From assembly GCA_003388505.1 (NCBI GenBank), contig QQVO01000060.1:62001-126000 (forward strand): 64,000 bases of DNA. The letters are read 5' to 3'. Under the pieces are notes generated by a model. That model saw nothing but the letters and a program-made list of their open reading frames with translations, was not told the DNA's origin and did no database searches. Positions 11,979 to 18,009 of the stretch are shown one piece after another. The number at the start of each line of letters is the position of its first letter. Position 1 is the first letter of the stretch. The translations under genes were made by a program, and so were the position numbers. Source of the stretch: Planctomycetota bacterium. GTDB lineage: Bacteria; Planctomycetota; Planctomycetia; Planctomycetales; Planctomycetaceae.

Positions 11979-12363
11979 CGGCCGGTGGTTGAGTTCGAAG
12001 AATGGATTCGCGCAAAGACGCCAGGTCGCGGAGGGTTTTTTACTGGTGCTGTCGTTCGGTCGAGTTCTCTTGTCTCCATCGTACCGGCAGGGCGCTTTGA
12101 TCGGTACTGGAGGCGCTCTATCGGCCCGTTGACCGAACTCCGGCTCCTTGCGGACTGGAGAGGTCGTAGCGGCGGGCTGTTGATTCGTGCAGTGTGGCGG
12201 ACTGCGAGGTCGATGTCGGTTTGACGACCCTGCGGCGGCGCTCGCGCGTCGCAGTTCCCGCCCTGCAGCAGAATGAACTTCCATGATCGCGTCCGGTGTT
12301 TCCGCAAATGAGAATCTTGCAAGCGGCTTGAAGCAGGAGGGGCGGTCGGGCAAACTTCGTCGC
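11979..12363. other. Divergent intergenic region
   Basis: About 385 bases between the divergent Kelch-like and GNAT genes. It must hold both promoters, but I could not assign convincing -35/-10 pairs. No RNA or repeat is recognised. Confidence 0.4.
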
Positions 12364-13422
12364 ATGCTTGACGTTCGCACCTATGCCGGCGATGCGGCGA
12401 CCCTGAGCGAGTTTGTGGGTCGTGTGTGGCGGGCCACCTATGCCGACCGGATGCCGCTGCCTGTCTGGGACGAGCGCTTTTTCGATTGGCAGTTGACCTG
12501 GCGTACTGCGGAGGAGCGGCCGCATTGCGTTGCAGTGTATGACGGCGACCGTTTGGTGGGGACGCTGCTGGGCGAGGAATTCCGGTTTCGCTGGTTCGAC
12601 TCGGAGCATCTCGGCACGCAGGGAAGCTGGCTGACGGTGGAACCGGAGTATCGCCGTCAGGGGGTCGGCAAGCTGCTGCTTGAAGAACTCAAGCGCCGAC
12701 ATCGTGAGCGGGGCGCGGATTTTCAGATCGGTTACGGGTATCACGGGTCGCGCTTGTCCCTGGGGCCGAAGTTCTGGAAGACGCACCCGGAGGGCACGGT
12801 GGTTCCGCGCAGCCTCGGGTTTTCGGTGCGGGTGCTCAACCCGCGCGCGGTGGCGGCGTGGGAGTTAAGCCGCTTGGAGGGATGGGGCGCGCGGGGTCTG
12901 GAGTGGTGGCAGCCGCGTCCGGAGAAGTGGCAGCCCGACTCGCACGTGCGGGAGTATCGCAGCGAGGATCTGGCGTCGTGTCTGGAACTCTCCCACGGGC
13001 TGCTCGATCACGTCGAAGTGGGGATCATGTGGGAGCAGGACCGTCTGGCGCATCAACTGGACTACAAGGACTATCCGCAGACACTGGTGTATGAGACGGA
13101 CGGACAGGTCGCCGGTTTCATCAACTACCACCGGATGGAATACCTCGGCCGGGGAACGATCCGGATGGCGATGATCGATCTGTTTGCGGTCGGCGATCTG
13201 CCGTTGCCGGCGCAGGTGGCGCTGATGAAGACGGCCTTGTCCCGGATGCACAAGGAGGGTGTCGACGTGGCGATGTTGCTGCGTACGCCCTGTTTTCCGG
13301 GTGGCGTGCTGTGGCGAACCGGTTTCATTCCGCGATTGGCCGATCAGGCGATTCTGCTCACGAAGATGACCCCGGACTTCGATCCGGGGCGGGCGAAGCG
13401 GTTTCACGTGCTGTGGCGGTGA
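12364..13422 (+). CDS. GNAT-family N-acyltransferase
   Basis: A 352-residue GNAT protein. The acyl-CoA-binding motif A is clear at LTVEPEYRRQGVGKLLLEEL (90-109), with the RRQGVGK pyrophosphate loop at 97-103. The C-terminal half (DLASCLELSHGLLDH…, LFAVGDLPLPAQVALMKTAL) looks like a second, degenerate GNAT-like unit. Family members move an acyl group from acyl-CoA or acyl-ACP to an amine. It lies 338 bases upstream of the reductase-aminotransferase fusion, on the same strand. Acylation of an amine made by that enzyme is an attractive but untested idea. Confidence 0.8.
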   Translation: MLDVRTYAGDAATLSEFVGRVWRATYADRMPLPVWDERFFDWQLTWRTAEERPHCVAVYDGDRLVGTLLGEEFRFRWFDSEHLGTQGSWLTVEPEYRRQGVGKLLLEELKRRHRERGADFQIGYGYHGSRLSLGPKFWKTHPEGTVVPRSLGFSVRVLNPRAVAAWELSRLEGWGARGLEWWQPRPEKWQPDSHVREYRSEDLASCLELSHGLLDHVEVGIMWEQDRLAHQLDYKDYPQTLVYETDGQVAGFINYHRMEYLGRGTIRMAMIDLFAVGDLPLPAQVALMKTALSRMHKEGVDVAMLLRTPCFPGGVLWRTGFIPRLADQAILLTKMTPDFDPGRAKRFHVLWR

Positions 13423-13760
13423 CGGCGGGAACGCCGGCGACCGGTCAGCGAGACTTCTCCGTTTTTTGAGATTCGGCGGATTGCGCCGGGTCTGTGCGGA
13501 TGTGGTGGATAGAATGCATTGGCCCGCCCGGCGGCGATCGATTCGGCGGCGCAGGCGACAATACAATTGCATCCCTTGACGCGATATGACAGCATCAATG
13601 GTTGCGCCGGTTGAGTTCAGCGGGTTCACAATACGGCGGAATTCAAGAAAGTTTCACAAATCTCGACGACTTGCGACCGGCTTGGCGCCGGTCGGGTCGG
13701 GCTGCCGCGAGACGTTTTCCCTCCGTCCGCACGTCGGACTGGCATCGAGCAAGGACATCA
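13423..13760. other. Leader region of the reductase-aminotransferase gene
   Basis: A stretch of 338 bases with no supported gene. A hairpin with GACCGG/CCGGTC arms lies about 70 bases before the start codon (near 13675-13693). Whether it is regulatory is unknown. Confidence 0.35.
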
Positions 13761-16367
13761 ATGAAGTTCGCATTTCTCATTCATCCGATCAGCACGGAGG
13801 TGAGTGATCTGACCCGCCTGGATGCGGACACCGGCGTTCTCAAGACCTGGGGGACGGACCCGCTCGGTCTGCTGGCCCGGATCCACGGCCCCGAAGCCGC
13901 GCGTCAGTACGCTTCGACGCAGCGTGAGACCGGTCCGGTGGTGATCGATGAAATCTGCGGTCCGACCTCCCACGACGGCAAGGAGGTTCGGGGCCGTCTG
14001 ATCGAGATTCCGATGAAGGCGTCGGAGATTCTGGAGTTTCCCGACGCGGCGGTGGAGCAGATTGAACGTGCCGTGAAAATGGCGGCCGATTGGGGCGCGC
14101 GGGTCGTCGGCCTGGGCGCCATGACGGCGGTTGTCGGAGGGCGCGGAACATACATCGCCGAGCACAGCCCGATCGCCATCACCACAGGCAACAGCCTGAC
14201 GGTGTACGCGGCGATCCAGGGTCTGTTCCATGCCGCGGACGAGCTGAATTTCGACCTGCGGCGGGAAACGATCGCGGTTGTCGGCGTTCCGGGCAGCATT
14301 GCCTCGGCTGCGGCGACGCTCTTGGCGCCTCATTGCGGGGAGTTGCTGATCGTCGGGAGACGCGCTTCAGCGCCGGCCCAGCGCCTGGCGGACAAACTCG
14401 GCGTCGAGTTGTTGCTGGACATCGACGAAGCGTGCAGCCGGGCGCGAATCGTGTTCTCAGCGACGTCGTCGGGAAGCTGCATCGACCAGACGAAGTTGCA
14501 GCCGGGGACGATTGTGGTCGACGTGGGCGTTCCGGCCGACGTGATGGGAGACGGACCGCTGCGTTCGGACGTGCTGGTGCTGACCGGTGGACTGGCCGCG
14601 GTGCCGGAGGACGGACGATGGCATTCGCCGCGCGTGATCCGGTTCCAGCGGGGGATGATCCCGAGTTGCATGGGCGAGACGATGATCCTGGCGCTGGAGG
14701 ATCGGCAGGAATGCTACTCGCTGGGCCGCGTGCTGGACGTGGAAAAGATCGCCGAGATCGGCGCAATCGCCACGGCGAACGGTTTCCGGTTTTCCCGGCT
14801 GTGCTCCTTCGGCCAGGTGCTGGACGACTCGGTGCTGGCGGAGTTCCGCAAGCATGTGCGGCGCGATCCGGCCCGGCAGCCGCTGCGGAGGACCGAGAAG
14901 AGCGGCGCGGCGGAGCTGGCGAAGCGCGCACCGCGATGTTTCAGCCGGCACATCAATCCGCCGCTGGCGGCGTTCATGGAACGCGCGGGCATCGCGCGGA
15001 CGTTCGTGCGCGGCGAAGGCGCCTGGCTTTACGACGCGGACGGAGCGCGGTATCTGGACCTGGTCTCCGGTTACGGCGCGGTGAACCTGGGGCACAACCA
15101 CCCGGCGGTTGTTGATGCGGTGAAGAGTGCGATCAACTCGTACTCGCCGGGATTCGCTCCGTCGGCGATCAATCCGTACGCGGCGGCGCTGGCGGAGGAA
15201 CTGGTTTCGCTCTCACCGGCCGGCCTCGAGATGGCCTTCTTTACGAACAGCGGAACCGAAGCGACCGAGGCCGCGCTCAAACTCGCGCGGGCCTCGACCG
15301 GCCGAGCGGGACTTCTGCATTGTTTCCGCTCTTTCCACGGGAAGTCGATGGGCTCGCTGTCGGTGACCGGCAAGACGGAGTTGCAGCAGCCGTTTCAACC
15401 GCTGGTCGCTGCGGCCGAGGGTGTCCCGTATGGGGACGTCGACGCATTGCGCCGCGAACTGCGGAAGCAGAAGTATGCGGCATTTCTCGTCGAGCCGGTG
15501 CAGGGCGAGGCCGGCGTGTATGTGCCGCCGACCGGGTATCTCAAGCAAGCGGAAGAGATCTGCCGTGAGAACGGGACGCTGCTGGTGGTCGACGAGGTGC
15601 AGACCGGTCTCGGCCGGACCGGCGCGCTGTTCGCCTGCGAGCACGAAGGCGTGACGCCCGACATCCTGACGCTCGCGAAGTCGCTGGGCGGAGGGATGAT
15701 GCCGATCGGGGCGATGCTGGCCCGCGGGGATGTGTGGCATCGCGCGTATGGAACGGTCCAGACCTGCCTGCTGCACACGAGTACGTTCAGCGGGGGCAGC
15801 CTGGCATGCGCCGCGGCGCTGGCAGGAGTGCGTGCGGTTGTCGAAGAAGAACTTTCGGAGCGGGCCCGGGATCTGGGCCAGCGGTTGCAGGACGGGTTGC
15901 GGGAACTGACAACGCGATACCGCTGCGTCAAAGAGGTGCGCGGCAAGGGACTGATGGTCGGCGTGGAGTTCCGCGCCTGGCCCAGGACGGCCGTGAACCA
16001 CTGGAAGTCCCTCGACGAAACGGGACTGACCGCGTACCTCGTGAAAGGGTACGACGGGATGGTTTCGGCCCTGCATACCCTGCAGGCAATGTTCATCCTG
16101 CTGAACCGCTTCGGGATCTACACGCAGAACACCCGGTCGAATCCGCTGGTGCTCAGGATTCAGCCGCCGCTGATGATCGCCGAAGCCGAGATCGACCGTT
16201 TCCTCGATGCGATGCACCAGACGTGCCGCGAAGTGGACCACATCTGCAGCGCGCTGACCGGCGGCGTGAGCAAGTCGTCGCTGGGCAAGCACGACGCGCG
16301 GTCGGAAGCGGAGGCGCCCAAGCCGGCGAGCGACGTGTTTCTATCGGCGCCAAGCAGGGATGCGTAA
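13761..16367 (+). CDS. Acyl-ACP-reductase-like domain fused to class III aminotransferase
   Basis: An 868-residue two-domain enzyme. Residues 1-360 resemble the cyanobacterial long-chain acyl-ACP reductase (AAR). Shared features are VIDEI…GRLIEIP (61-84), the LGAMTAVVG and TTGNSLTVYAA stretches, the dinucleotide motif VVGVPGSIASAA (173-184), and SCMGETMILALE (302-313), whose Cys303 aligns with the acyl-accepting cysteine of AAR. Residues 390-830 are a PLP-dependent class III aminotransferase: SGTEA (497-501), Asp611 in VVDEVQTG, and Lys640 in TLAKSLGGG. A plausible reaction is reduction of an acyl thioester to an aldehyde followed by transamination to a primary amine or aminoketone; this is inferred. 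PigE of prodigiosin synthesis has a similar size and C-terminal domain. The ATG at 13761 follows AAGGA. Confidence 0.85.
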   Translation: MKFAFLIHPISTEVSDLTRLDADTGVLKTWGTDPLGLLARIHGPEAARQYASTQRETGPVVIDEICGPTSHDGKEVRGRLIEIPMKASEILEFPDAAVEQIERAVKMAADWGARVVGLGAMTAVVGGRGTYIAEHSPIAITTGNSLTVYAAIQGLFHAADELNFDLRRETIAVVGVPGSIASAAATLLAPHCGELLIVGRRASAPAQRLADKLGVELLLDIDEACSRARIVFSATSSGSCIDQTKLQPGTIVVDVGVPADVMGDGPLRSDVLVLTGGLAAVPEDGRWHSPRVIRFQRGMIPSCMGETMILALEDRQECYSLGRVLDVEKIAEIGAIATANGFRFSRLCSFGQVLDDSVLAEFRKHVRRDPARQPLRRTEKSGAAELAKRAPRCFSRHINPPLAAFMERAGIARTFVRGEGAWLYDADGARYLDLVSGYGAVNLGHNHPAVVDAVKSAINSYSPGFAPSAINPYAAALAEELVSLSPAGLEMAFFTNSGTEATEAALKLARASTGRAGLLHCFRSFHGKSMGSLSVTGKTELQQPFQPLVAAAEGVPYGDVDALRRELRKQKYAAFLVEPVQGEAGVYVPPTGYLKQAEEICRENGTLLVVDEVQTGLGRTGALFACEHEGVTPDILTLAKSLGGGMMPIGAMLARGDVWHRAYGTVQTCLLHTSTFSGGSLACAAALAGVRAVVEEELSERARDLGQRLQDGLRELTTRYRCVKEVRGKGLMVGVEFRAWPRTAVNHWKSLDETGLTAYLVKGYDGMVSALHTLQAMFILLNRFGIYTQNTRSNPLVLRIQPPLMIAEAEIDRFLDAMHQTCREVDHICSALTGGVSKSSLGKHDARSEAEAPKPASDVFLSAPSRDA

Positions 16368-16433: not shown

Positions 16434-17858
<1,425 letters not shown>

Positions 17859-17983
17859 GTCTCTTCGTTTCTGATAGGAGTTCGTCGATCGATTCCGCGC
17901 GACATCATAGCGATCGTCGGCGCGTCGTGTTAGACGCGCGGAAGGCCGATGGGGGAGGGACTCGCACCAACGCGCAAAGGGAA

Positions 17984-18009
17984 CGCCCTCGGGCTGCAAC
18001 CCGAGGGCG
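17984..18009. terminator. CTGCAA-loop hairpin
   Basis: Perfect 10-bp stem CGCCCTCGGG/CCCGAGGGCG with loop CTGCAA, between the fumC start and the stop of the minus-strand heme protein gene. It probably ends transcription of the NsrR-like/heme protein unit. Confidence 0.5.

Follow-up and report, generated by a model that had tools for sequence, protein, structure and literature searches.

The window analyzed here, a 64,000-nucleotide stretch of planctomycete DNA, carries a two-domain fusion gene between an upstream GNAT gene and a convergent fumarase-like gene. We refer to the fusion order as AAR-TA when the AAR-like domain precedes the aminotransferase (TA) and as TA-AAR when the order is reversed.

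12283..13422, + strand: tandem GNAT P0002, 379 aa, N-myristoyltransferase (NMT)-like, ending in -LWR (Pfam GNAT; family profile against the PDB)
13761..16367, + strand: PigE-like fusion gene, 868 aa (NCBIfam NF053554 PigE score)
13761..14864, + strand: AAR-like thioester reductase domain, residues 1 to 368, with Rossmann motif GVPGSI and acyl-accepting Cys303 (phmmer to 4ppm and 6jzq; Cys column 38/38)
14925..16364, + strand: class III PLP aminotransferase domain with Asp611 and Lys640 (Pfam Aminotran_3; 4ppm PigE; residues checked)
16434..17999, - strand: class II fumarase-like gene, convergent with the fusion (Pfam Lyase_1, 322.9 bits; FumaraseC_C, 76.7 bits)

An AAR-like domain fused to a class III aminotransferase

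The fusion frame is open: translation from the ATG at 13761 gives 868 aa, and the ORF as listed is longer, with a TTG start at 13602 (921 aa). Compared with the copy in a second genome of the family, G036, the fusion has a dN of 0.117 and a dS of 1.06 over 593 codons (dN/dS of ~0.11), and the AAR domain alone has a dN of 0.075 and a dS of 0.95. The fusion is under purifying selection relative to the G036 copy and is therefore a real gene. A gene similar to the fumarase-like gene also lies after the end of the fusion in G036 (locus L045; judged by eye). This flank is common to the window and G036 and is outside the system.

A first-pass annotation had described an AAR-like domain joined to a class III aminotransferase, and our searches confirmed both halves. 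Pfam assigned Aminotran_3 to residues 413 to 821 (337.8 bits) and, at most, the generic Shikimate_DH to the N-terminal half (30.4 bits). Against PDB chains (phmmer), residues 1 to 368 matched PigE (4ppm; E value, 7e-47) and the AAR of S. elongatus (6jzq; E value, 2e-17), and a glutamyl-tRNA reductase chain (3oj0) only at an E value of 0.013; the N-terminal domain thus does not match only shikimate- or glutamyl-tRNA-reductase-like enzymes. For the aminotransferase half, PigE (4ppm) was the best PDB match (E value, 3e-113).

The annotated residues are present where they had been placed: Cys303 in the context RGMIPSCMGETMILALE, Asp611 in DEVQTG, and Lys640 in LTLAKSLG. Cys303 had been equated with the acyl-accepting Cys294 of the S. 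elongatus enzyme; the two residues align, and their column is Cys in all 38 aligned AAR rows, so that no homolog in the alignment lacks it. These rows comprise 36 from the window and the compared loci, plus PigE and S. elongatus AAR; 12 other AAR-matching loci (L128, L130, L131, L132, L134 to L138, and L141 to L143) are outside the alignment. One of the 38 rows, that of G476 (L081), deviates from the motif directly after the conserved Cys. The N-terminal domain therefore has the two marks of an AAR-type enzyme, a Rossmann glycine motif and the counterpart of Cys294, and the C-terminal domain has those of a class III aminotransferase, an Aminotran_3 match and the PLP-binding Asp and Lys. An AlphaFold2 model of the fusion was poor (mean pLDDT, 43.4; 4 alignment rows); Foldseek with this model ranked PigE and AAR first, a result to which we give little weight.

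Distribution and history of the fusion

The fusion was found along most of its length in 9 of 99 genomes, its own included (among these nine, the G036 copy is split over two contigs, and the G014 and G025 copies have stop codons as counted by the tool). Within the window's own genome, the AAR domain has one match at an E value of 0.001 or better. AAR matches occur in 18 of the 170 genomes of the window's family, as 12 AAR-TA fusions (three cut by contig ends), five fusions in the reverse order, and one AAR-only ORF. A phylum sample of 392 genomes likewise has 18 with an AAR match: 14 in the TamH (TA-AAR) order, two in the PigE (AAR-TA) order, one stand-alone (G431), and one at a contig end (G121). 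Across this sample, the TamH order was commoner than the PigE order (14 versus 2 of 392 genomes). The stand-alone AAR of G431 (L156) adjoins a FabA-like gene, and an ACP-like gene lies about 3.3 kb further.

Of 2002 plasmid records with any match, 14 have at least 80% of the protein covered at a single site. We inspected 8 of 15 listed plasmid loci; three have the PigE order within prodigiosin-type clusters (one with PigD annotated), and five have the TA-AAR order. Two TamH-order fusions on Rhodobacterales plasmids (L120, Rhodovulum; L122, Haematobacter) lie near VPLPA-CTERM genes, and exosortase xrtD and polysaccharide genes are also near the fusion of L120. These settings could point to a role for an amine lipid in exosortase sorting. 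Around the other TA-AAR loci (L078, L079, L080, L082, and L083; in the phylum sample, L125 to L143), we observed sulfotransferase and P450 genes near L079 and L083, PPDK_N-type PEP/pyruvate-binding genes near the fusions of L082 and L083 (a PEP/pyruvate-binding domain is also part of PigC), and, near that of L080, a polyketide synthase.

We constructed separate trees for the two domains. In the AAR tree (36 rows, with L077 and L081 left out), the 13 AAR-TA fusions from planctomycetes cluster together (96/91), and four PigE rows form a separate group (100/100) that is joined by one stand-alone AAR. The planctomycete fusions adjoin PigE plus that stand-alone AAR; 17 TA-AAR rows and S. elongatus AAR lie beyond a 99/96 branch. 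In the aminotransferase tree (47 rows), from which a length filter removed 4 of the 12 stand-alone loci offered (L014, L016, L018, and L027) and the fusions of G036 and G488, the planctomycete fusions once more cluster together (100/99). PigE here joins eight aminotransferases taken as stand-alone (94/91) and not the planctomycete fusions directly. Three rows labeled stand-alone in this tree (L135, L137, and L142) are TA-AAR ORFs, which inflates the count of TA-AAR changes and leaves the AAR-TA and PigE groups unaffected. A simple single origin of the fusion is not secured by these trees, which are compatible with either one or two fusion events: the AAR tree places the fusions beside PigE, whereas the aminotransferase tree places PigE with stand-alone enzymes. 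Because of this latter grouping, it is not certain that function was inherited from a PigE-like ancestor.

Neighbors of the sister fusions

We compared 14 fusion loci, from 13 genomes and TMED10. A FemAB-like gene adjoins the fusion in seven of them (G050, G032, G040, G057, G014, G486, and G485), and in five of those seven (G050, G032, G014, G486, and G485) a formyltransferase gene lies beside the FemAB-like gene, with its ORF shortened in G014 and cut by a contig end in G486. Pfam confirmed PF04339 in four FemAB-like proteins and PF00551 in two formyltransferase proteins; the rest were assigned by BLAST. In G486 and G014, the genes share a 4-base overlap of the kind seen in operons with translational coupling. 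The formyltransferases of G040 and G057 are on other contigs. Neither gene is beside the fusion in six further loci (the window, G036, G473, G025, G094, and TMED10), of which G094 has just 447 bases downstream of the fusion, with a transposase fragment, and G473 has a sulfotransferase gene in the neighbor position; G488 is cut by a contig end. Neither the FemAB-like nor the formyltransferase query matched the window genome at an E value of 1e-20.

Within the family, 12 of 170 genomes have the formyltransferase at an E value of 1e-20 and 9 of 170 have it below 1e-30, a threshold chosen after the list was seen; in either set, seven genomes also carry the fusion. The FemAB-like gene is present in 27 of 170 genomes, eight of them with the fusion. 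With related genomes treated as independent, the hypergeometric P value for co-occurrence with the fusion is 4e-8 for the formyltransferase (nine-genome set; by genus, 6 of 8, P = 1e-4) and 5e-5 for the FemAB-like gene. A FemAB_like profile gave nothing convincing against the PDB (best E value, 0.039), so the fold of this protein is known via Pfam only. The presence in half of the sister loci of a FemAB_like gene, of the GNAT fold but unrelated to the GNAT of the window, supports acylation of the amine only indirectly.

In G051, which is without the fusion, the formyltransferase lies about 2 to 6 kb from FabZ-like, FabG-like, ACP, and FabF-like genes (ACP by Pfam, the other three by eye). Two other genomes without the fusion have a FemAB-like gene beside LPG_synthase_C-like genes (L108 and L110; by eye).

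The upstream GNAT and its likeness to N-myristoyltransferase

The first-pass annotation had paired the fusion with the GNAT gene, P0002, which lies upstream with a gap of 338 bases. At an E value of 1e-30, members of the P0002 family are present in 21 of the 170 genomes, 23 in total (window positions 12283 to 13422, L032, L157, and L160 to L179). Only two genomes, that of the window (G000) and G036, have both a family member and an AAR-TA fusion, and genomes with the fusion show no enrichment for this GNAT (2 of 12, versus 21 of 170; P = 0.45). The pairing is therefore not general, and across relatives the link that had been proposed is weak. Co-occurrence rules out a P0002-type GNAT as the general partner of the fusion.

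We compared a 12-row profile of the GNAT family with all PDB chains. Eukaryotic NMT ranked first (E value, 5e-11). Against NMT1, the best stretch of this profile had an E value of 8.5e-9 and covered profile columns 32 to 264 of 356, with the last 92 columns unaligned; it spans both GNAT domains and the linker between them (YWHRSLNP in NMT1). As a single sequence, P0002 has weak NMT matches (Pfam NMT, 15.5 bits, under the gathering score of 25), and at an E value of 0.1 Pfam reports NMT in 7 and NMT_C in 2 of 12 family members. The C terminus is exactly LWR in 22 of 23 members; that of G465 ends in -ILFT. According to a GNAT review (PMC4964394), the C-terminal carboxylate of NMT probably serves as the catalytic base, a feature said to be unique among GNATs. 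The fixed LWR end is a signature of the family and only suggestive of such a mechanism. The review names “Treponema” among the sources of solved NMT structures, which we take for a slip. An AlphaFold2 model of P0002 was poor (mean pLDDT, 44.1; 2 alignment rows).

By BLAST, the GNAT family has LPG_synthase_C-like neighbors in 13 of 23 loci and GH3-like neighbors (acyl-amido synthetase type) in 9 of 23; Pfam confirmed LPG_synthase_C for one protein and GH3 for six. The member in G465 overlaps an asparagine-synthase-like gene by 4 bases; a TA-AAR fusion lies about 8.5 kb away, and the same stretch contains a polyketide synthase. We consider the chances evenly balanced that the fusion and its GNAT neighbor are functionally unrelated, with their adjacency in G000 and G036 reflecting shared synteny only. 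The absence of enrichment, the intergenic gap, the fumarase-like gene that follows the fusion in both genomes, and the commoner neighbors of the GNAT family all argue for this reading; the G465 locus and the position of another GNAT-fold gene next to half of the sister fusions argue against it. Either way, the reading is compatible with the explanation of the fusion itself that we prefer.

A predicted route from acyl thioester to amine

The fusion very probably turns activated acyl chains into amines. We consider it highly likely that the protein is a bifunctional enzyme of the PigE kind that would convert an acyl thioester to an aldehyde and then to a primary amine, and that the planctomycete amine feeds a pathway other than that of prodigiosin. 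In this scheme, Cys303 of the N-terminal domain would accept the acyl group of an ACP or CoA thioester, and the resulting thioester would be reduced with NAD(P)H to the aldehyde. The aldehyde would be handed to the C-terminal aminotransferase, where PLP on Lys640, with an amino acid donor, would yield the primary amine. At half of the sister loci, the FemAB-like transferase, of the GNAT fold, would probably acylate the amine, perhaps with formylation as well. For the species of the window, the NMT-like tandem GNAT is a possible acylating enzyme, a role that co-occurrence does not support.

Both half-reactions are predicted by homology to PigE and TamH. More tentative are an acyl chain as the substrate, a long chain in the amine, N-acylation of that amine, and its destination in a membrane lipid or natural product; the neighbor genes suggest the later steps of N-acylation and N-formylation. 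An amine-lipid pathway is plausible but unproven. A specific version of it is a two-gene pathway within the window: the fusion would make a lipid amine and a bacterial NMT-like GNAT would acylate it via its own C-terminal carboxylate, giving an N-acyl amine, while sister planctomycetes would reach a related product by a FemAB-like transferase and N-formylation; together these would be an undescribed class of planctomycete amine lipids. We put this version forward tentatively and think it rather unlikely.

The fusion might instead be a module resembling glutamyl-tRNA reductase and an aminomutase that converts a polar acyl donor (an aminoacyl-tRNA or an amino-acyl carrier protein) to a small amino compound and not to a lipid amine. 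PigE has itself been compared with the GluTR-GSAM pair (PMC8341465), and the weak resemblance of the N-terminal domain to 3oj0 points the same way. However, the PigE and AAR matches are far stronger than the GluTR match, half of the sister loci have acyltransferase-like neighbors, and the stand-alone AAR of G431 lies near FabA-like and ACP-like genes. We therefore regard such a module as very unlikely.

We also determined whether the PigE kinship of the fusion extends to a prodigiosin-type pathway. The NF053554 PigE model scores the fusion at 789.9 bits over residues 54 to 826 (785.2 bits in a second search), below its curated equivalog cutoff of 850, and none of the 392 phylum genomes reaches that cutoff. 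When the proteins of a Pseudoalteromonas prodigiosin-type cluster were searched against the window ORFs (E value, 1e-3), one of nine, PigE itself, matched; as a control, nine of nine matched in each of two clusters, L116 and L119. The window ORFs also lacked homologs of the ACP and acyl ligase of that cluster; this absence, the inactivity of purified PigE, and the restriction of TamH to acyl-ACP made by TamA count against our preferred scheme. Other genes of that cluster accompany PigE on Pseudoalteromonas, Methylocystis, and Thioclava plasmids. PigD had no match in 13 fusion genomes (E value, 1e-5; a search without a positive control), and the PigC query yielded partial matches only in AAR-TA genomes. 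Given these results, and even though no named family is closer than PigE and the two groups have AAR domains that lie together, apart from the TA-AAR rows, it is scarcely credible that the fusion is a genuine PigE that reduces and transaminates a branched 3-acetyl-acyl thioester to give a pyrrole (2-methyl-3-alkylpyrrole type) for a prodigiosin-like pigment. Two genomes with TA-AAR fusions (L158 and L159; G043 and G467) do encode PigC-like proteins of nearly full length (25% identity).

The first-pass annotation had proposed that one polypeptide could turn an acyl thioester into an amine. This proposal is well supported by homology and well founded, but it is not new, because the chemistry is already known and in print for PigE (PMC8341465) and for TamH (PMC9594044). 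What looks new is the setting, away from pigment genes and beside a gene that resembles NMT. New, too, are the AAR-TA fusions in 12 of 170 family genomes, with a FemAB-like neighbor in 7 of 14 loci and a formyltransferase in 5. Neither an AAR-aminotransferase fusion in planctomycetes nor a bacterial NMT was found in the open-access literature, among the matches listed. To our knowledge, no enzyme of the planctomycete AAR-TA clade has been assayed. On our preferred reading, the PigE/TamH amine route extends beyond red-pigment clusters into planctomycetes. Since half of the loci couple the fusion to an acyltransferase-like gene, often with a formyltransferase, the predicted lipids should be within reach of ordinary lipidomics. 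The NMT resemblance of the GNAT family, together with its fixed C terminus, may bear on the origin of eukaryotic NMT.

Comparison with NMT, cyanobacterial AAR, TamH, and PigE

Like eukaryotic NMT, the window GNAT family has a tandem GNAT arrangement, and its fixed C terminus may be a further likeness. Unlike NMT, it is bacterial and ends in -LWR, and the window sequence falls below the Pfam NMT cutoff.

S. elongatus AAR (6jzq) is a homolog of the N-terminal domain, with Cys294 aligned with Cys303. Unlike the window protein, it is unfused, and the aldehyde made by cyanobacterial AAR goes to hydrocarbon synthesis and not to an amine (PMC8341465).

TamH (tambjamine YP1, Pseudoalteromonas tunicata) combines in one chain the same two proposed activities as the window fusion. 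In published work (PMC9594044, 2022), TamH and TamA converted a C12 acid to the C12 amine in a coupled assay, TamH accepted only acyl-ACP made by TamA and not C12-CoA, and its domains are reversed, with the aminotransferase first. The window fusion, with AAR first, does not have this order, and the TamH-order rows of the AAR tree, TamH itself not among them, lie across a supported branch (99/96) from the planctomycete fusions.

PigE consists of an N-terminal AAR-related thioester reductase, with Cys296 at the Cys294 position, and a C-terminal transaminase; PigE lysates converted a thioester to a transaminated, cyclized product, and purified PigE gave no product (PMC8341465, 2021). Unlike PigE, the window fusion scores under the family cutoff and belongs to a separate AAR group (96/91), and half of the sister fusion loci have FemAB_like partners. 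PigE-order proteins on plasmids have about 36 to 37% identity to the window fusion. The first-pass annotation had called PigE comparable in its two-part size. The size agrees, and the remark understated the likeness: the window fusion has the PigE architecture, an AAR-like domain followed by a class III aminotransferase in one chain, and its domain order and active-site Cys are those of PigE (prodigiosin MAP biosynthesis; NF053554, 4ppm). Judged by sequence, PigE is the closest characterized relative of the window fusion.
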